DNA from: Gemmatimonadota bacterium
Lineage (GTDB): Bacteria; Gemmatimonadota; Gemmatimonadetes; Longimicrobiales; RSA9
DNA: 64,000 nucleotides
Reading direction: 5' to 3'
NCBI GenBank assembly: GCA_007126035.1
Contig: SLCC01000020.1
Location: 56,567 to 120,566, forward strand
Made by a program: the position numbers and the translations under genes. This document shows positions 963 to 13,773 of the stretch, one piece after another; positions within the stretch are counted from its first letter, which is position 1, and the number at the start of each line of letters is the position of its first letter. A model generated the notes under the pieces. The model was not told the origin of the DNA. It was given only the letters and a program-made list of their open reading frames with translations, and searched no databases.

Positions 963-991
963 TTGCCGCAACAGCCACCACCTCCTAGTGT
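963..991 (+). promoter_or_regulatory. Candidate ssb promoter
   Basis: TTGCCG (963-968), 17 bp spacer, TAGTGT (986-991), about 60 bp upstream of the ssb start codon. Spacing is ideal; the -10 box is a moderate match. Confidence 0.4.
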
Positions 992-1053
992 TGCCGTGCC
1001 GGAGCCCCTGTCGCGTCCGGAACGGTGAGCTGCCACACGATGAAAGGACGAGC

Positions 1054-1527
1054 ATGAGTCGATCACTGAACAAGGTCACCCTCATCGGTAACGTGGGGGC
1101 GGAGCCCGAGATCCGGTCCACCCCCTCAGGCACGCGCATCGCGAAGGTCTCTCTGGCCACCAACCGGACCTTCACTGATCGCTCGGGCCAACAGCAGGAC
1201 AAGACGGAGTGGCATCGGCTCACGTTCTGGGACAAACTGGCCGACGTGGTCGAGCGGTACGTCCACAAGGGGGACCGCCTCTACGTGGAAGGACGCCTGG
1301 AGTACTCTCAGACCCAGGACGAACAGGGCAACGTCAGGTACTGGACCGACATCGTCGCCCGGGAGATGATAATGCTCGGAGCCGGCGGACCGGGCGGCGG
1401 CGGCGGACCGGGCGGCGGTGGCGGACCGGGCGGCGGTGGAGCCGACTACGGCCGCGACCAAGCTCCCGGTAGAGAGCCCGCGCCGGGACCGGGCCCCTTC
1501 GAAGAGGACGACGATCTGCCGTTCTGA
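1054..1527 (+). CDS. ssb: Single-stranded DNA-binding protein
   Basis: Binds ssDNA in replication, repair and recombination and recruits partners through its C-terminal tip. The 157-residue product has an N-terminal OB fold (about residues 1-105, opening MSRSLNKVTLIGNVG and including WHRLTFWDKLADVVERYV), a Gly/Pro-rich linker and the acidic tip EEDDDLPF, a good match to the classical partner-binding peptide. The ATG at 1054 was chosen over the upstream ORF start because GAAAGGA precedes it and the OB fold begins there. A second, tip-less paralogue lies at 13291-13686, so this is probably the main replicative SSB. The gene converges on rsgA with 30 bp between stop codons. Confidence 0.95.
   Translation: MSRSLNKVTLIGNVGAEPEIRSTPSGTRIAKVSLATNRTFTDRSGQQQDKTEWHRLTFWDKLADVVERYVHKGDRLYVEGRLEYSQTQDEQGNVRYWTDIVAREMIMLGAGGPGGGGGPGGGGGPGGGGADYGRDQAPGREPAPGPGPFEEDDDLPF
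1384..1437 (+). repeat. 18-bp in-frame tandem repeat, three copies, in ssb linker
   Basis: Three tandem copies of GGCGGACCGGGCGGCGGY (18 bp), each encoding GGPGGG in the disordered SSB linker. The copies differ at one wobble position. Copy number could vary without frameshift. Confidence 0.85.
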
Positions 1528-1557: not shown

Positions 1558-2478
1558 TCAATCGTCGGGTGACAGCAGTGCCTGGTAGCTCTCGAAACGC
1601 TCCACCGGGATCTCCCCGGCCTCCACGGCCTTCCTGACCGCGCAGCCCGGCTCGTGATCATGTGAGCAGGACCGGCCGAACCGGCAGGAGTCCAGGTAGT
1701 CCTGGAACTCGGGGAAGTGTAGGTCCAGCTCGGTCGGGTCTATGCGCCAGAAGCCCAGCTCCCGGAGGCCGGGTGTATCGGCCACGTAGCCGCCGCAGCT
1801 CAGTGGGATGAGTCGGGCAGAGACGGTGGTGTGGCGGCCCTTCCCCACGGCCTCGCTCACGGCGGCTGTCCGGAGCTGGAGGTCCGGGTCCATGGCGTTG
1901 AGGAGGCTGGACTTGCCCACGCCCGAGGGCCCGGCCAGCGCGCTGACCCGTCCGCACAGGTGCTGGCGCAGGTCTTCGATGCCCTGGCCGGTACTGGCGC
2001 TGGTGACCACGACGGGGTAGCCGATCCTTTCATAGACGCGGAACGGCTCGAAGTGCTCCTCGTCCGCCAGGTCCGCCTTGTTGGCCACGACGACCGCGTT
2101 CAGATCGTTCGCCTCCGCCAGCACGAGGAACCGGTCCAGCATGCGGAGCCGTGGGGTCGGATGTACCAGTGCGAAGACGGCCACGATCTGGTCCACGTTG
2201 GCGGCCAACACCTTGGCCCGATACCGTCCCGCCCTGGGCGCCGCCCTGGCGAGCTCGCTCTGCCGCTCCGCCACCGCCTCGATCGTGTAGTTGCCGTCCT
2301 CGTGCTGGCGGACCTGGACCCGGTCACCCACCACCACCGCGTCGCCGGTCCTTTGCTGCTGCTTCAGCCGACCGCGCAGCACGGCCTCCACCACCTCGCC
2401 CCGATGCAACTCGACCTCGTACTTCCCGCCCACGGCGGATCGTACGAGGCCGTTGATCTGCCCGGAGGCGGCTGACAT
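1558..2478 (-). CDS. rsgA: Small ribosomal subunit biogenesis GTPase RsgA
   Basis: Circularly permuted GTPase that acts late in 30S assembly. The 306-residue protein has an N-terminal OB domain (about 1-75), then the permuted motif order: G4 NKAD, G5 region SAST, G1 GPSGVGKSSLLN, a Thr pair for G2, and G3 DTPGL. The C-terminal zinc segment has Cys-His residues in CRFGRSCSHDHEPGC. Length is normal for the family. Its ATG shares one base with the stop of the upstream sigma factor (TGATG), so the two are translationally coupled on one transcript. Confidence 0.95.
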   Translation of the reverse strand: MSAASGQINGLVRSAVGGKYEVELHRGEVVEAVLRGRLKQQQRTGDAVVVGDRVQVRQHEDGNYTIEAVAERQSELARAAPRAGRYRAKVLAANVDQIVAVFALVHPTPRLRMLDRFLVLAEANDLNAVVVANKADLADEEHFEPFRVYERIGYPVVVTSASTGQGIEDLRQHLCGRVSALAGPSGVGKSSLLNAMDPDLQLRTAAVSEAVGKGRHTTVSARLIPLSCGGYVADTPGLRELGFWRIDPTELDLHFPEFQDYLDSCRFGRSCSHDHEPGCAVRKAVEAGEIPVERFESYQALLSPDD

Positions 2479-3365
2479 CAGGCGGCGAAGCTCTCCAGTG
2501 CTATCCCCATGTCCCCCTCCCGGAGTCGCTTCAGTGCCCGGTCCCGGAGCTGGCGTACCCGCTCACGGGTCACGCCCAGCATGTTGCCGATCTCTTCCAG
2601 GGTGTGGGCCTCACCGCCGTCGAGCCCGAAATAGAGCCGGAGCACCCTGGCGTCCCGGGGGTTCAGTGTTTCCAGGGCCGCGTCGATGTGCTCGGCGAGC
2701 ATGCGGTCCTCCACGTCCTCCTCGGGCTCGGTGGCCTCGTCGAGGACGAAACGCTCCACCAGGTAGCTGTCATCGGTGTCACCGATGGGTGCGTCCAGCC
2801 GGATCTCGGCGGAGTTGAGCGTCTGCAACTGCTCCACCACCTCGGGCGTCAGCTTGGCGGCCTTCGCCACCTCTTCCGTGCTCGGGTCCCGGCGCAGCTC
2901 CTGCTTCAGCCGCTCCCGCTCGCGGAAGATCCGAGCCAGGTCGCTGGCCCGGTTGAGGGGGACACGCACTGCCCGGCCCTGATTGGCCAGTGCCGCCAGG
3001 ATGGCCTGACGGATCCACCAAACTGCGTACGAGATGAACTTGACACCCTGGTCCGGGTCGAACTTCCTGGCCGCCGTTACCAGGCCTACATTGCCTTCCT
3101 GGATGAGGTCCGCCAGCGATACGCCCCGGTTCTGGTACTTCTTGGCCACGCTGATGACGAACCGCAGGTTGGCCCGTGCCAGGGCCATGATCGCGTCCTC
3201 GTCGCCTGCCTTCGCACGGCGACCCAACTCGATCTCCTCCTGGGTCGTGATCAGCTCATGCTTACTGACGTCACCCAGGTACTGATCGAGGGCGTTCTGG
3301 TCCTCGTGCAGGGGCCGGAATCCCTCCAGCCGCCGCCGGCGCTGCTTGCTTTCGATAGTTGCCAT
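2478..3365 (-). CDS. RNA polymerase sigma-70 family factor (RpoD-like, no region 1.1)
   Basis: Promoter-recognition subunit of group 1/2 type, 295 residues. Region 1.2 is near the N terminus (DQYLGDVSKHELIT), region 2 includes FDPDQGVKFISYAVWWIRQ, region 3 follows, and region 4 carries the helix-turn-helix (TLEEIGNMLGVTRERVRQL). It lacks the long acidic region 1.1 of E. coli RpoD, like many primary sigmas of small-sigma phyla. ATG 3365 was preferred to the track start at 3446 because the conserved protein begins there and a G-rich stretch precedes it. It shares an operon with rsgA. A close paralogue lies at 12260. No convincing promoter was found in the 217 bp upstream. Confidence 0.93.
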   Translation of the reverse strand: MATIESKQRRRRLEGFRPLHEDQNALDQYLGDVSKHELITTQEEIELGRRAKAGDEDAIMALARANLRFVISVAKKYQNRGVSLADLIQEGNVGLVTAARKFDPDQGVKFISYAVWWIRQAILAALANQGRAVRVPLNRASDLARIFRERERLKQELRRDPSTEEVAKAAKLTPEVVEQLQTLNSAEIRLDAPIGDTDDSYLVERFVLDEATEPEEDVEDRMLAEHIDAALETLNPRDARVLRLYFGLDGGEAHTLEEIGNMLGVTRERVRQLRDRALKRLREGDMGIALESFAA

Positions 3366-3582
3366 CCTCCCCCACCGCTCTCTAGCCCGCCGGACCGCCC
3401 GGCCTTGAATGGAAACCCTTGCGAGGCCTGGAAGGTTCCACCGCAAGGTCTTTGCCTGCGCGAACCGTTCCGGTGCGATCGAATCCAGCGGGTCAACCCC
3501 GTCTCGCGGCTGGTATTAACCCTGCCACCGGGCGGGGGTTCCGGCGGGTGTCGGTGCGGGAGCTGGCGTCCGTGGCGTCAGC

Positions 3583-6552: not shown

Positions 6553-8352
6553 ATGAGCGGACGATCGCAGGTGGAGTACCTGGCCCTGGGACTGTTCCTC
6601 CTCGCCGCCCCGTCACTGGCGGCACAGGAGGACGGCGCCAGGGAGTGCCCGGCGGGCGTGGTCAAGCACATCTTCATCGACAACCACTCCATCTTCGACA
6701 TCTCGGACCCATCACTGGACCCGCGGTTCCGCTGGGCGTACGACCTGGCGAACCGGCTGCACATTCGCACCAGGTCGGAAGTCATCGCCCGGGAGCTGCT
6801 GTTCCAGGTGGGCGACTGCTTCGATCCCTTGCTCATAGAGGAGTCGGCACGCCTGCTCCGGTCCCATCGTTTCCTCGGCAACGTGGACATCTACGGTGTC
6901 CAGCAGCCTGACCGTGACTATCACGTCATCGTGGACACTGAGGACGAGTGGTCGACCCAGGTGGAGGCGAAGCTGGACCTGACGGGCGGCATGAAGTTGG
7001 AGGGCCTGGACCTGCGGGAGCGGAACCTGATGGGCACCGGGCGCGAGCTGGGCGTCTTCTACCACTCCCTGGACGCCACGCGGGAGTACGGCCTCGCGGC
7101 CCGGGCGCCCCAGTTCCTGGGCCGCCGCTGGGTGGCTGACCTGGCGGTGGGTCGCACGCGCGCGGGCAGCATGCTCGAGCAGGGGCTGGCCCACCCGTTC
7201 GTCGGCGAGATCGGCCACTGGTCGGCGCGCCAGCTCATCCATTACCGGGACCGCCACTTCGACTACGTCCTCGCCCCCTCCGGGGACGGGGTGGAGCGAC
7301 GGGTCTTGGTCCCGCTCACAGAGCGCGGCGTCCACGTCCTGGGGTTCAGGAGGTTCGGCGAGCCAGGCAACCATACGGTAGTGGGTGCGGGGTTCAGCGC
7401 TCTCGAGCTCAGGTACGATGGCGCTCCCGATCGGGGCATCACCATGGTCGAGGCGGGCAGGTACGATGACCGATTCCCGGCCCCCCCGGAACTGCGAGAG
7501 CCCGCGGAGGAGCGGATCGAAGAGCTGCGGAACGTCAGGGCGGTGGTCCTCCTGGGCAAGCGCAACATCAGCTGGCAGCAGCGACGCGGCCTTGACAGCT
7601 TCCGCGGCCGGCAGGACGTGCGCGTCGGCGCCGAAATCGAGCTGGCCGTGGGGCGTTCACTGCCAGGGCTCCACGCCGACAACGACCTCGCGGCCACCCT
7701 GGACCTCTACTTCGCCGCCGGCCCGTCATCCGCCTTCCTGGTCGGTCGCGTCCGCACCGACGCTCGCCGGGATTACGACGCAGATGCCCGCCTGATCGAG
7801 TTGCGCGACATCTTCTCTGAGGGTGAGGTGCTGGTGTACCTGGAGCCGGGCCGGCCCGGCAACCGGACCATCCTCCTGCGCGCCGCGGGGGCCGGTGGCT
7901 GGCACGTGCGCAGCCCCCACCAGCTCACCCTGGGCGGGGAGCGGTCGCTCCGTGGCTGGCCAGAGGACCGCCTGCCTGGAGGACGACGGCTGGTCTTCAC
8001 CGCCGAAGACCGCTGGCACGCCGGCTGGCCGTTCCCGGACCTGGCCGACGTGGGGACTTCCCTGTTCGTGGACATGGGCAGGATCTGGCCAGGCAACGCG
8101 CCCTACGGCGCCGACTCCGGCTGGCGCGCCTCGGTGGGTGGCGGGCTGCGGATCAACTTCCCGGCAGGCGGGACCAATACCTTGCGGATCGATGCCGCGT
8201 TCCCACTGTCGAGCGATGGCGGACTCGGCCGGATGCAGCTGCTGATCGGAGTGGGAGAGTACCTGGGCATCACCACTCCCTTCTCCGATCCGCAGTTCGG
8301 CCGCTCCCGCATGCCGCCCATCACCGGCTCCGCCCCGGACCGCACCCGCTGA
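6553..8352 (+). CDS. Omp85-superfamily outer-membrane protein with one POTRA domain
   Basis: Predicted outer-membrane beta-barrel of the BamA/TamA superfamily, 599 residues. A signal peptide (YLALGLFLLAAPSLAAQ) is followed by one POTRA-like domain (about residues 40-120, with RSEVIARELLFQVGD and ESARLLRSHRFLGNVDI). The rest is barrel sequence with a late SLRGWPEDRLPGG segment resembling the family's conserved (V/L)RG(F/Y/W) loop. ATG 6553 is preceded by GGAAGCAG; the track start at 6487 would add residues ahead of the signal. Ten bases downstream the methyltransferase begins, so it heads a five-gene same-strand cluster. One POTRA is too few for canonical BamA, so a secretion or surface-export role is possible but unproven. 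Confidence 0.8.
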   Translation: MSGRSQVEYLALGLFLLAAPSLAAQEDGARECPAGVVKHIFIDNHSIFDISDPSLDPRFRWAYDLANRLHIRTRSEVIARELLFQVGDCFDPLLIEESARLLRSHRFLGNVDIYGVQQPDRDYHVIVDTEDEWSTQVEAKLDLTGGMKLEGLDLRERNLMGTGRELGVFYHSLDATREYGLAARAPQFLGRRWVADLAVGRTRAGSMLEQGLAHPFVGEIGHWSARQLIHYRDRHFDYVLAPSGDGVERRVLVPLTERGVHVLGFRRFGEPGNHTVVGAGFSALELRYDGAPDRGITMVEAGRYDDRFPAPPELREPAEERIEELRNVRAVVLLGKRNISWQQRRGLDSFRGRQDVRVGAEIELAVGRSLPGLHADNDLAATLDLYFAAGPSSAFLVGRVRTDARRDYDADARLIELRDIFSEGEVLVYLEPGRPGNRTILLRAAGAGGWHVRSPHQLTLGGERSLRGWPEDRLPGGRRLVFTAEDRWHAGWPFPDLADVGTSLFVDMGRIWPGNAPYGADSGWRASVGGGLRINFPAGGTNTLRIDAAFPLSSDGGLGRMQLLIGVGEYLGITTPFSDPQFGRSRMPPITGSAPDRTR

Positions 8353-8362
8353 GACGGTCACC

Positions 8363-9064
8363 GTGACCCTGCTGCGCCGGCTCGAAGGGGCAGAGGAGCT
8401 CATGGATGGGCCAGACGTCGAGAGGACGGAGCTGGAGACGGCCTTGCGTCACCTGGCCCGGATCAACCGGTGGACCGGTGCCCGGCGCGCCCTCCTCAAA
8501 CACCTCCCCACGGTGGTGCCGCCGGCCGGCTCCCGTATCCTGGACGTGGGCACCGGCGGGGCGGACCTGCCCCTGGCCGTGGCCGGTTGGGCCGAGAGCC
8601 GCGGCAGGCGCGTCAGCATCGTTGCCGTGGACCGGCACCAGGCCACCCTCGAGCTGGCCCGGCAGCGCGTGGCCCACCGCCCGGAGATCCGGACCCTCCG
8701 CGCCGATGTCCTCAGGCTGCCGTTCCCCGCTGGCGCCTTCGACCTGGCCCTCCTTTCCATGACGCTCCATCACCTGGACGGGCACGCCCTCACACACGCG
8801 CTCGGCGAGCTGGCCAGGGTGGCCGAGGGCGGCCGCGTGATGGTAGGCGAGCTGGAGCGCTCCGTGCCCAACTACCTGGGCGCCCGCCTCCTGGCCGCCA
8901 CGATCTGGCGCGGCAACGGGGTGACCCGCCACGACGGACCCATCTCCGTGCGCCGCGCCTTCACCCCCGGCGAGCTCCTCGAGCTGGCCCGCCAGGCCGG
9001 GCTCCGGGCCCCGCAGGTCCACAGGCACCCGTTCTATCGCCTGATCCTCATCGCCAGCGCCTGA
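8363..9064 (+). CDS. Class I SAM-dependent methyltransferase
   Basis: Small-molecule or lipid methyltransferase, 233 residues. SAM-binding motif I is ILDVGTGGADLPLAVA, motif II ends VAVDRHQATLELAR, and the acidic loop is RADVLRLPFPAGAFDLALLS followed by HHLD. The GTG start at 8363 keeps the family-typical lead LRRLEGAEELMDGPD; an ATG at 8402 with GAGGAG upstream is an alternative. Relatives commonly accompany polyketide or quinone-like tailoring genes. It is 10 bp downstream of the Omp85 gene and 123 bp before the cyclase gene, supporting a common pathway. Substrate unknown. Confidence 0.85.
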   Translation: MTLLRRLEGAEELMDGPDVERTELETALRHLARINRWTGARRALLKHLPTVVPPAGSRILDVGTGGADLPLAVAGWAESRGRRVSIVAVDRHQATLELARQRVAHRPEIRTLRADVLRLPFPAGAFDLALLSMTLHHLDGHALTHALGELARVAEGGRVMVGELERSVPNYLGARLLAATIWRGNGVTRHDGPISVRRAFTPGELLELARQAGLRAPQVHRHPFYRLILIASA

Positions 9065-9187
9065 GAGCCGCGGCGGAAATCGTGGCCCCGCGGCAGCGGC
9101 CCCTTTCCTGCAGCGCCCGCCCACTGCTTGTGACGGTCGTACTCTCGTCCGGGCAACACTTCACACTGGCCCAGCCACGGAGCCGAG

Positions 9188-9679
9188 ATGATCCGAATCG
9201 ATGAACAGCTGTCGACGTCGCCCCCGGACCTTCTTTTCCAGGTGGCTGCCGACGTGGAGCGATGGCCGGATATCCTGCCGCACTACCGCTGGGTGAAGTT
9301 CCAAGAGAAGACCGGCTTCGGCCACGGTCTGGTGGAGATGGCGGCCTGGCGGGATTTCGGCGGCCCACTCCGCTACCCCACATGGTGGGCCTCCCGGATG
9401 GAGAGCGACCCGGCCGTGCCCGTGGTCCACTACCGGCACGTGGACGGCGTGACCCGGGGCATGGACGTGAGCTGGGAGTTCATCCCTGCCGCCGGCGCCA
9501 CGCTGGTCCGTGTGGTCCACGAGTGGCAGGGCCCGGCCTGGCCGGTGATCGGCCGCTTCGCCGCCAGGCACGTGATAGGTCCGCACTTCGTGAGCGCCAT
9601 AGCCCGTCGCACCATAGCCGGCGTCTGCGCCGAGGCGGAGCGGCGAGCCGGGGTGACGAAGGCGGGGCCTCATGGCTGA
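9188..9679 (+). CDS. SRPBCC (START-like) polyketide cyclase/dehydrase-type protein
   Basis: A 163-residue helix-grip-fold protein of the kind that binds hydrophobic ligands and, in aromatic polyketide pathways, cyclises or aromatises the chain. It opens MIRIDEQLSTSPPDLLFQVA followed by DVERWPDILPHYRWV, the classical opening of the family. The start is supported by CACGGAG upstream. Its last 8 bp overlap the start of the FabF-like gene, so the two are translationally coupled. The ketosynthase partner argues for a cyclase or lipid-handling role; passive lipid transfer is also possible. Confidence 0.8.
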   Translation: MIRIDEQLSTSPPDLLFQVAADVERWPDILPHYRWVKFQEKTGFGHGLVEMAAWRDFGGPLRYPTWWASRMESDPAVPVVHYRHVDGVTRGMDVSWEFIPAAGATLVRVVHEWQGPAWPVIGRFAARHVIGPHFVSAIARRTIAGVCAEAERRAGVTKAGPHG

Positions 9680-10931
9680 GCCCCACGGGCCGCCGTACCG
9701 GGTCGCCATCACGGGCCTCGGCCCCATAACCGCCGTGGGCACCGGCCGCGACGGCTTCTGGCAGGGCCTGCGCGCCTGCCGCTCGCCAGTGCGCCGCGTC
9801 ACCCGCTTCGACCCGTCGCCATGGCGCTGCCACATCGCCGCCGAGGTCGACGACTTCGACGCCGCCGATTTCATGGACAGACGCCAGGCTCGACGCCTCG
9901 ACCGTTTCATGCAGTTCGCCATAGCGGGCGCCAGGATGGCTCTGGAGGACGCACGGCTCGACCCCGGCGACCTGGACCCGGACCGGGTCGCCGTCCAGTT
10001 CGGCTCCGCCCTGGGCGGGATCGCCTATGCCGAGGAGCAGGTGGGCAACCTGCTGGGCGGCGGGACCCGGGCCGTGGACCCCCGGGTGGCGCTCACCACC
10101 TTCTGCGGCGCCTCCAGCTGCGGCGTCGCCATCGAGTTCGGCTTCACCGGACCCAACTCGACGAACGCCATGTCATGCGCGTCAGGGACCATCGCCATCG
10201 GTGACGCGTTCCGGCTGATCCGTGACGGGACCAGCGACGTGGCGGTGGCGGGCGGGGCGGAGGCGCCACTGGCGCCGCTGTCCTTCGGGGCCTTCGCCCT
10301 GATCAGGGCGATGAGCACACGCAACGATGAGCCGGAGCGAGCCTGCCGCCCGTTCGACAAGGGCCGGGACGGCTTCGTAATGGGGGAGGGCGGCTGCGCG
10401 CTGATCCTCGAGCGCCTGGACCTGGCCGTGGCCAGGGGCGCATCGATCTATGCCGAGCTGGCGGGCTACGGGACCTCCAACGATGCCCACCACATGACCG
10501 CGCCCCTGCCCGACGGCAGCCAGGCCGCACGGGCCATGAGGCTGGCGCTCAGCTCCGGCGGCATCGCGCCGGAGCAGGTGGACCTCATCTGTCCCCATGG
10601 CTCTTCCACCCCGCTCAACGACGCCACCGAGACCGCCGCGATACGGACCGTCCTCGGTGAGCAGGCCTACCGCGCCCCCGTCTTCGCCACCAAGCCGTAC
10701 CACGCCCACGCCCTGGGCGCTTCGGGGGCCATCGAGCTTGCCGCCGCTTGTCTGGCGCTCCGCCACGAATGGGTACCGCCCACCCTGAACTTCGATGACG
10801 GCGGCGACGATTGCGACCTGGACTACGTGCCAGGTGAGGGCCGGGACTACCGGGCCAGCGTTTGCCTGTCCAACTCCTTCGGGTTCGGTGGGATCAATGC
10901 CTCGCTGGCCATCCGTCGCCACGATTCCTGA
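9672..10931 (+). CDS. Beta-ketoacyl-ACP synthase (FabF/KAS II-like)
   Basis: Condensing enzyme of 419 residues that would extend an acyl-ACP chain with malonyl-ACP. The Cys-His-His set is intact: catalytic Cys in NAMSCASGTIAIGDAF, His in ICPHGSSTPLNDATE, and His in KPYHAHALGASGAIE. The glycine-rich tail motif SFGFGGINASLAI is present, so it is not a decarboxylating chain-length factor. Start overlaps the cyclase gene. No ACP, ketoreductase or malonyltransferase is nearby, so it either borrows the primary FAS machinery or is a dedicated KS for a small tailored product. Confidence 0.92.
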   Translation: MAEPHGPPYRVAITGLGPITAVGTGRDGFWQGLRACRSPVRRVTRFDPSPWRCHIAAEVDDFDAADFMDRRQARRLDRFMQFAIAGARMALEDARLDPGDLDPDRVAVQFGSALGGIAYAEEQVGNLLGGGTRAVDPRVALTTFCGASSCGVAIEFGFTGPNSTNAMSCASGTIAIGDAFRLIRDGTSDVAVAGGAEAPLAPLSFGAFALIRAMSTRNDEPERACRPFDKGRDGFVMGEGGCALILERLDLAVARGASIYAELAGYGTSNDAHHMTAPLPDGSQAARAMRLALSSGGIAPEQVDLICPHGSSTPLNDATETAAIRTVLGEQAYRAPVFATKPYHAHALGASGAIELAAACLALRHEWVPPTLNFDDGGDDCDLDYVPGEGRDYRASVCLSNSFGFGGINASLAIRRHDS

Positions 10932-10994
10932 CCATCGAGCCACGGCAAACCGCGACCCCCTTCCCAGAACCGCCCGGCTGCGCCACTTTTCGGC

Positions 10995-11957
10995 ATGACT
11001 CCGGTGCTGATTGGCCAGATCATGGGCGTCTCCTTCGCCTCCGGCCTGAATATATACGCTACCGTCGCCGCCCTGGGGCTGCTCTCCCGTATGGGGATCA
11101 TCCAGGAGCTGCCGCCGGCCCTGCACGGGCTCCAGAGCAGTATCATCATCGGCACGGCACTGGTCCTGTATATGGTCGAGGCCATAATCGATCGCGTGCA
11201 CCACGTCGATTCGCTGTGGGACACCGTCCACACCTTCGTCCGACCGCCGGCCGCCGCGCTCCTGGCCGTCGGCATGCTCTGGGCTCAGCCGCTTCACCTC
11301 CAACTGGCCGCTGCCGGCATGGCCTTCCTCGTGGCCCTGGCCGCCCATGGAACCAAGGCCGGATTCCGCATCGCCGTCAACGCTGCCAGCCGGAAGCGAA
11401 GCATCACTCCAATCAGCACAGGCGAAGACCTGGTCGCGGTCCTGTTCGTGGTCGGCGCCTTCGAATACCCGGCAACTGCACTCATCGCCGGGGTCGCCGC
11501 ACTGGCCCTCATCGGCCTGTTCGGTTCCAGGCTGTGGAGAGCCTTCACTCTGGGGTTCCGTTGTGTGACCGCATGGATCCGGGCGCTCTTTATCACCCCC
11601 GGCTGGCGGGACGCCGACGCGCTGCCGAGGCGACTCCGGGCCCTGCTGGACGACCCGCCCCTGGGTACCGCACCGCACAGGACGACCAGGGCGGCGGTGA
11701 ACGGGATCCCGGGCATCGGCGCCTACCGTAACGGCTGGCTGGTCGTCACGCCCGACGGGCCCGCCTTCCTCTGCAATGGCCTGTTGCGAGCAAGGCGCGT
11801 CGACCTGCCCGACCCCGTCGAGATGAACATCGATCCGGGCCCCTGGGTCAACGAGATCCACGTCCGCCACCAGGACAGCTCCTTCACGCTGTACCTGCTG
11901 CAAGACGGCCCTCCCGCAGAGCTCGTCCTCGCGGAACTGGAGACTGTTCCATTGTGA
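10995..11957 (+). CDS. DUF4126-type integral membrane protein
   Basis: A 320-residue membrane protein. The first about 200 residues carry five or more hydrophobic segments and match the DUF4126 pattern (QIMGVSFASGLNIYATVAALGLL near the start, then VHHVDSLWDTVHTFVRPPAAALL). The C-terminal 120 residues are soluble and less conserved. It lies 63 bp after the ketosynthase on the same strand and may be the last gene of that cluster. Function of the family is unknown. The sequence CACTTT lies just before the ATG, so it could have its own leaderless promoter. Confidence 0.75.
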   Translation: MTPVLIGQIMGVSFASGLNIYATVAALGLLSRMGIIQELPPALHGLQSSIIIGTALVLYMVEAIIDRVHHVDSLWDTVHTFVRPPAAALLAVGMLWAQPLHLQLAAAGMAFLVALAAHGTKAGFRIAVNAASRKRSITPISTGEDLVAVLFVVGAFEYPATALIAGVAALALIGLFGSRLWRAFTLGFRCVTAWIRALFITPGWRDADALPRRLRALLDDPPLGTAPHRTTRAAVNGIPGIGAYRNGWLVVTPDGPAFLCNGLLRARRVDLPDPVEMNIDPGPWVNEIHVRHQDSSFTLYLLQDGPPAELVLAELETVPL

Positions 11958-12259: not shown

Positions 12260-13120
12260 ATGTTCGTGAACTCACGCGCACTGGACTCCTTCGATCAGTA
12301 CCTCTTCGACGTGGAGAAGTATCCACTCATCGAGGATCCCATGGAGGAGCGTGCGCTGGCTGCCCGGGCCCGGGAGGGTGACAAGGAGGCGGCCGAGCGG
12401 CTGGTGACTGCCAACCTACGCTTCGTGATCTCGTACGTGAAGAAGTACCAGGGCCGAGGCCTGGGTCTGGCCGAGTTGGTGTGCATAGGTAATGAAGGAC
12501 TGCTGAAGGCCGTCAAGAAGTTCGACCCGGACAAGGGCGTGAAGTTCATATCGTACGCGGTGTGGTGGATTCGCCAGACGGTCTTGCAGGCGCTGGCGGA
12601 GCAGACCCGCTCAGTCCGCATCCCGCTGAACCAGAACTCGAACCTGGTGAAGCTGTCTCGTACGGAGACGGCCCTTACGCAGCTCCTTGGCCGCTCGCCG
12701 ACGGATCAGGAGATCGCCGAGCACATGGAGGAGCCGATCGAGACCGTTCGCGCTCTTCGTCGTGTTGCCGCGTCCGAGTTGTCCCTGGATGCGCCCATCG
12801 ATCGTGGTGATCGTGACAGCGCCTCCTTCGGCGAGCGATTTGCCGGCGCGGAAGGCGATGATATCGAGGAGAGCGTGGAGTCCCAGGCTCGTCGTGAGTT
12901 CCTGGACCGCATGTTCGACAAGTACCTGACGGAGCGGGAGCGCAAGATCCTGTATCTGTATTATGGTCTGGACGACGGGGAGGAGCGTACCCTGGAGGAG
13001 ATCGGCTCGCTGCTGGGTGTCACTCGCGAGCGGATCCGCCAGATCCGGAACAGGGCCTTCGAGAAGCTGCGGGAGAGCAACGACGGCGAAGCTCTGGCCA
13101 CGTTCTGGGCTGCCGAGTAG
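12260..13120 (+). CDS. RNA polymerase sigma-70 family factor (second RpoD-like copy)
   Basis: Sigma factor of 286 residues with regions 1.2 (FDQYLFDVEKYPLIEDP), 2 (FDPDKGVKFISYAVWWIRQTV), 3 and 4 (TLEEIGSLLGVTRERIRQI). Region 1.1 is absent. It resembles the 2478-3365 sigma in layout but is clearly diverged, e.g. LAELVCIGNEGLLKAVKKF in region 2, where a group 1 factor has DLIQEGNxGL. The Asp-to-Glu and Gln-to-Cys-Ile changes there suggest an alternative sigma. The gene sits behind a strong promoter and a leader terminator, and is followed by a good terminator, so it is monocistronic. Confidence 0.93.
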   Translation: MFVNSRALDSFDQYLFDVEKYPLIEDPMEERALAARAREGDKEAAERLVTANLRFVISYVKKYQGRGLGLAELVCIGNEGLLKAVKKFDPDKGVKFISYAVWWIRQTVLQALAEQTRSVRIPLNQNSNLVKLSRTETALTQLLGRSPTDQEIAEHMEEPIETVRALRRVAASELSLDAPIDRGDRDSASFGERFAGAEGDDIEESVESQARREFLDRMFDKYLTERERKILYLYYGLDDGEERTLEEIGSLLGVTRERIRQIRNRAFEKLRESNDGEALATFWAAE

Positions 13121-13290: not shown

Positions 13291-13686
13291 CTATGCGTCG
13301 ACCAGCTCCTCTTCCGTGTCGGCGTTCTCCAGGGCGGCGCCGTTCACGGCGCGTCCGGACGCGGAGCCAAGCATCACCAGCTCCCTTACCACCACCTCGG
13401 AAGTGGGTATGGTTACGCCATCCCTCTCGTAGGATCCGTATTCGATCCTGCCCTCGACGTACAGGCGATCGCCCTTCCGGATGTACTCTTCGGCCAGCTC
13501 CGCCAGCCGTCCCCATGTGGCCAGCCGGTGCCACTCTGTGCGCTCCTCGAATCCGTTCTCCCTGGGGATCCGCCGGCTGGTGGCCAGGGAGAAGTTGGCC
13601 ACCTTGTGGCCCTTGGGCGTGGTCTGGAGCTCGGGATCCCGTCCTACGTTGCCCACCAGGATCAGCTTGTTGACCGAACGTGACAT
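13291..13686 (-). CDS. Second single-stranded DNA-binding protein, without acidic tip
   Basis: SSB paralogue of 131 residues. The OB fold is clear (MSRSVNKLILVGNVGRDPEL; EWHRLATWGRLAELAEEYI; GDRLYVEGRIEYGSYE) but the protein ends ADTEEELVDA soon after the fold. It has no Gly-rich linker and no DDDxPF partner-binding tip. ATG 13686 has a perfect GGAGG six bases upstream; the track start at 13722 does not. It lies 87 bp downstream of polA on the same strand. A tip-less SSB may have a specialised role (competence, repair) or form mixed tetramers with the 1054 protein; that is inference. Confidence 0.9.
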   Translation of the reverse strand: MSRSVNKLILVGNVGRDPELQTTPKGHKVANFSLATSRRIPRENGFEERTEWHRLATWGRLAELAEEYIRKGDRLYVEGRIEYGSYERDGVTIPTSEVVVRELVMLGSASGRAVNGAALENADTEEELVDA

Positions 13687-13773
13687 CGATGCCTCCGCGT
13701 GAAGTGTGATGGGTTCCATCAACGCGGATGTTTCACGTTCAGCTGGGGCGTTGGAATAGCTGGTTGGGCCTAT

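Follow-up and report, generated by a model that had tools for sequence, protein, structure and literature searches.

Two kinds of described systems lie closest to the locus that we analysed in a 64,000-nucleotide stretch of DNA (the window) from a Gemmatimonadota genome. In the hidABC (hierridin) operon and in planctomycetal operons, a methyltransferase (MT) gene is followed by genes for an FAD enzyme and a type III polyketide synthase (PKS); the planctomycetal type III PKSs make alkylresorcinols, and co-expression of the MT and the FAD enzyme added one methyl group (PMC10896814). Type II aromatic PKSs, such as those of actinorhodin, tetracenomycin and R1128, combine a ketosynthase (KS) of the KAS fold with an aromatase/cyclase (ARO/CYC) of the TcmN/WhiE/ZhuI family, and their elongation normally requires a chain length factor (CLF) (PMC12664062). 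The locus and its relatives share with the former systems the MT family, a homologous FAD enzyme and, in the window genome's family and in Paenibacillus, the gene order MT, FAD, condensing enzyme, but they carry a FabF-like KS and an ARO/CYC-family protein in place of the type III PKS, and the copy in the window has no FAD gene. They resemble the latter in the pairing of a KAS-fold KS with an ARO/CYC, whereas a CLF and a dedicated acyl carrier protein (ACP) are absent and a conserved pocket arginine is replaced by methionine.

The window genome is a 3.88 Mb MAG with a completeness of 98%. All five co-directional genes of the preliminary description were present on the plus strand, encoding an Omp85-family barrel protein (6553-8352; PF01103, 3.8e-9), a class I SAM MT of a PRK06202-like family (8363-9064; PF13649/PF08241), a START/SRPBCC protein of the aromatic polyketide ARO/CYC family, assigned by profile and fold (9188-9679; PF03364, 4e-10), a FabF-like (KASII) KS belonging to a distinct clade (9672-10931; PF00109/PF02801) and a DUF4126 membrane protein (10995-11957; PF13548, 3e-35). 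Between the MT and ARO/CYC genes lies a 123-bp gap (9065-9187), the site at which relatives carry an FAD-dependent oxidoreductase gene that has been lost in the window genome. The ARO/CYC and KS reading frames of the window share 8 bp, an overlap consistent with the translational coupling that had been proposed, and the KS is complete in its active site as claimed, with C169, H309, H346 and K341 intact.

Comparison of relatives showed that the natural unit consists of the MT, FAD oxidoreductase, ARO/CYC and KS genes, not of the five genes first described. The relatives were taken from named genomes, and 54 of their KS loci offered 5 kb or more of upstream sequence. This region contained ARO/CYC in 53, FAD in 47 and MT in 43, with all four genes together in 43. 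Omp85 was near the KS in only 10 of the 54 loci and DUF4126 in one, so the five-gene set did not hold as a unit; gene order was kept for the core genes, with the KS-cyclase pair maintained across phyla. The four-gene block was present in eight Paenibacillus loci (L098, L099, L101, L104-L106, L109 and L116) as well as in L100, whose record is labelled Armatimonadetes, and L094, labelled Bacillota. That the four-gene operon is real, widespread and present in several bacterial phyla is therefore well supported. We found no prior description of such a four-gene pathway in the open-access literature, and the operon is apparently undescribed. As for the earlier remark that no described pathway was known with exactly the five genes, the set looks unfamiliar partly on account of the lost FAD gene.

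The arrangement varies among lineages. The other large Gemmatimonadota group, labelled Gemmatimonadales/Gemmatimonadaceae, has the order FAD, MT, ARO/CYC, KS. Several loci of this group (L067, L076, L079, L087 and others) carry a flavin reductase gene (PF01613) between FAD and MT, pointing to a two-component flavin system in these cases. ARO/CYC and KS stood alone at six loci, all from the Longimicrobiaceae group, and in three Longimicrobiaceae relatives MT and FAD were paired at a separate genomic site near an Omp85 gene. Partial loci were also found: L045 has a KS with no ARO/CYC, MT or FAD nearby, while two genomes, G014 (L164) and G048 (L167), have an ARO/CYC gene without the block KS beside it.

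Of 160 Gemmatimonadota genomes, 89 had the ARO/CYC protein and 88 the block-type FAD enzyme; 83 had both, six ARO/CYC only, five FAD only and 66 neither (Fisher p=1.8e-31, not corrected for ancestry). In 79 of the 83 genomes with both, the two genes lay within 5 kb of each other. The four-gene loci contain a single KS gene and no KS-alpha/CLF heterodimer. No ACP gene was found near any four-gene locus by a search that recovered acpP beside the control housekeeping fabF genes, and the reported absence of an ACP thus held for the window locus as well as for the four-gene loci of relatives. Given this absence, the housekeeping ACP must serve the operon.

We next consider the MT and FAD families, which connect the operon to type III PKSs. 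The best NCBIfam model for the MT was NF004851 (PRK06202), at 132 bits and below the cut-off. All eight MT homologs that we read in plasmid records lay no more than a few genes away from both an FAD enzyme and a type III PKS, the condensing enzyme of two Deinococcus records being annotated as a KAS III C-terminal-domain protein, and all eight type III PKS loci that we read in Gemmatimonadota had adjoining MT and FAD genes. KS-linked and type III PKS-linked MTs were intermixed in one tree, and the window MT shared 37% identity with that of Paludisphaera; the block FAD enzymes were only 28-33% identical to the type III PKS-linked FAD enzyme of Paludisphaera. In the window genome, a search with the Paludisphaera type III PKS gave no match, and PF00195 gave a single weak one (29.4 bits). 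Type III PKS was found in 3 of 89 genomes with the KS operon, as judged by ARO/CYC, versus 18 of 71 without it (p=7e-5), a difference on which shared ancestry weighs, since most of the 18 come from one family. Three genomes (G054, G055 and G184) keep a block-type FAD, lack ARO/CYC and have a type III PKS without an MT or FAD adjoining it; G116 and G141 are exceptions to this pattern. On a Novosphingobium plasmid (pLA3; L176, 1-4642), both kinds of condensing enzyme occur together in a mixed form: the neighbours of an MT belonging to this family are a type III PKS, a KS-family protein, an FAD monooxygenase, an ACP and a DUF2147 protein. The nearest PDB sequence matches of the relatives' FAD enzyme were halogenases. 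WxWxIP is the motif of flavin-dependent halogenases, and as it occurred in 0 of 61 of these enzymes, a halogenase function is disfavoured.

The gene set, gene order, co-occurrence, protein families, catalytic residues and absence of an ACP gene can be read from the sequences, and from these we infer the chemistry and the product. It seems to us an evenly balanced proposition that the product of the four-gene operon is a methylated aromatic lipid, which complete copies would also oxidise, the window carrying a reduced copy. Housekeeping acyl-AcpP would supply the fatty acyl chain, which the KS would extend by a few malonyl-AcpP units without reduction, and the ARO/CYC-family protein would fold and aromatise the resulting poly-beta-ketone into an alkylresorcinol or alkylresorcylate-like ring. 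The ring product would then undergo O- or C-methylation by the MT and be hydroxylated towards a (hydro)quinone by the FAD monooxygenase, such that KASII and ARO/CYC stand in for the type III PKS of hidABC and related type III PKS-MT-FAD operons. This phenolic-lipid reading is supported by the linkage of the four genes across phyla, the co-occurrence of ARO/CYC and FAD, the KS clade with intact catalytic residues, the profile and fold matches of the ARO/CYC, the lack of a neighbouring ACP, the association of MT and FAD with type III PKS, the rarity of type III PKS alongside the KS operon and the alkylresorcinols of Planctomycetota. It is weakened by the methionine in place of the pocket arginine, by the absence of the CLF normally needed for type II PKS elongation (PMC12664062), by the low FAD identity to Paludisphaera, by the partial loci L045, G014 and G048 and by the derivation of the type III PKS exclusion mostly from one family. 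More tentatively, a stripped-down aromatic PKS, with one KASII-like KS, a monodomain ARO/CYC, the housekeeping ACP and no CLF, may build alkylresorcinol/quinone lipids and have replaced type III PKS across several phyla. The preliminary suggestion of a polyketide-like or modified lipid is in keeping with a small pathway that has no ACP of its own and a KS-cyclase pair kept across phyla, but the placement of this lipid in the outer membrane was not supported.

For the START-like protein, a profile built from 49 relatives matched the PDB entries of BexL (5e-11), WhiE (6e-10), TcmN (8e-8) and ZhuI (8e-4). With an AlphaFold model (pLDDT 88.5), Foldseek placed ZhuI first (1e-10, TM 0.71-0.80), and TcmN, WhiE and BexL likewise scored high; interspersed with these ARO/CYC matches was TTHA0849, a START protein whose function is not stated. 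By sequence and modelled fold, the START-like protein is accordingly classed here as a member of the ARO/CYC (TcmN/WhiE/ZhuI) family. The conserved ARO/CYC arginine (R69 in TcmN, R66 in ZhuI) is essential in ZhuI and important in TcmN (PMC12664062), whereas the aligned position is Met71 in the window, Met in 45 of the 49 relatives and Arg in none. The family has invariant residues of its own (H32, Y33, R55, H84, T89 and W96), and together with the lost arginine these indicate that ring specificity, or even catalysis, may differ from that of known ARO/CYCs.

The main rival to aromatic-lipid synthesis is a non-aromatic modified lipid, in which the KS catalyses a single condensation that yields a beta-ketoacyl-ACP, the START protein carries acyl groups or acyl-ACP or binds lipid, and MT and FAD modify the product. 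KASII enzymes normally carry out single condensations, as this alternative would have it, and the missing pocket arginine also speaks for it. In Mycobacterium, moreover, acyl-AcpM is a ligand of a helix-grip protein that shares this fold (PMC9014085). The top sequence and fold matches of the START-like protein, however, are aromatase/cyclases and not other START proteins, and its MT and FAD partners are common to type III PKS operons that make alkylresorcinols; we therefore regard this alternative as somewhat unlikely.

A second alternative concerns the window genome only. The FAD oxidoreductase gene lies next to the cyclase gene in 11 of 11 relatives of the same family, yet no match to it was found anywhere in the 98% complete MAG, and blastx and alignment revealed no significant remnant in the gap at 9065-9187. 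A search of six genomes with a short FAD fragment gave no match, but it had no positive control and is given no weight here. By the former results, the window copy is a reduced operon that has lost FAD exactly between MT and ARO/CYC, an assembly error being less likely. Its product would end at the methylated, non-oxidised stage, unless the pathway is decaying. The absence of FAD from both the MAG and its slot, and the piecemeal loss seen in other lineages (L045, G014 and G048), would fit a decaying remnant without a working pathway. Against this, the MT, ARO/CYC and KS reading frames are all intact and their catalytic and pocket residues conserved, and Stieleria maiorica (Planctomycetota) has a type III PKS/MT operon without an oxidoreductase (PMC10896814), which implies that two-enzyme versions may work. 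We consider decay unlikely, though less so than the alternatives that follow.

Modification of an isoprenoid quinone, in which a UbiE-like MT would act together with a Coq10-like carrier and an FAD enzyme resembling UbiH or geranylgeranyl reductase and the KS would have no part, would agree with weak NCBIfam similarities of the MT to UbiE/MenG and of the FAD enzyme to UbiH and MenJ, all below cut-off. This is improbable: the nearest MT family is PRK06202 rather than UbiE, Coq10-like structures scored far under ARO/CYCs in the profile search, and the KS remains joined to ARO/CYC across phyla.

The KS itself is close to housekeeping FabF (KASII), sharing its fold, its catalytic residues and about 42-48% identity, and its score against TIGR03150 fabF (487.8 bits) is slightly under the cut-off of 493.75. 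The closest relatives of the window KS in the homologue comparison were from Gemmatimonadota, and the housekeeping FabF of the window genome is a separate, acpP-linked gene on a different contig. In the tree, the block KSs formed a single clade with 98/98 support that excluded the FabF sequences of these genomes. The Cys-His-His-Lys catalytic set is kept in 42 of 42 clade members, and relative to housekeeping FabF the clade is invariant for Gly to Ala at window A113, Ala to Ser at S168 (beside the cysteine) and Gly to Ala at A207, with Ile to Leu at L114 conserved in 95%. An ordinary housekeeping FabF duplicate, adjacent to the other genes by chance, would explain the near-cut-off TIGR03150 score, but it is very improbable in view of the separate clade, its invariant differences, the lack of a nearby acpP and the linkage to ARO/CYC in 53 of 54 loci.

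The pathway is present in roughly half of the sampled Gemmatimonadota (the 89 of 160 genomes with the ARO/CYC protein) and in several culturable Paenibacillus, whose copies make it directly testable. If aromatic lipids are indeed made, a single KASII without a chain length factor or its own ACP can supply an aromatase/cyclase, and one condensing system substitutes for type III PKS in the same tailoring context. In four Paenibacillus loci (L104, L105, L109 and L116), a fused methylmalonyl-CoA mutase-family gene with B12-binding, MeaB and mutase domains lies directly 3′ of the KS, and it may bear on the acyl starter.

The remaining genes of the window locus are lineage-specific neighbours. Omp85 is kept in part of the Gemmatimonadota only, where it remains beside MT and FAD in some families, and DUF4126 was also found at L039, L155, L162 and L163. 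The outer-membrane role that had been proposed by way of Omp85 is not supported, given its presence at only 10 of the 54 loci and the complete operon of Gram-positive Paenibacillus. Elsewhere in the window genome, contig C82 (L001, L004) has an open reading frame of 1789 codons that matches ketosynthase domains twice and may encode a type I PKS. Two SSB-like and two RpoD-like sigma-70 genes (988-1527, plus strand; 2478-3446, minus; 12260-13120, plus; 13291-13722, minus) flank the locus on both sides in pairs, each sigma-70 gene being close to one SSB-like gene. The sigma gene at 12260 is a common 3′ neighbour of the KS in some Gemmatimonadota.
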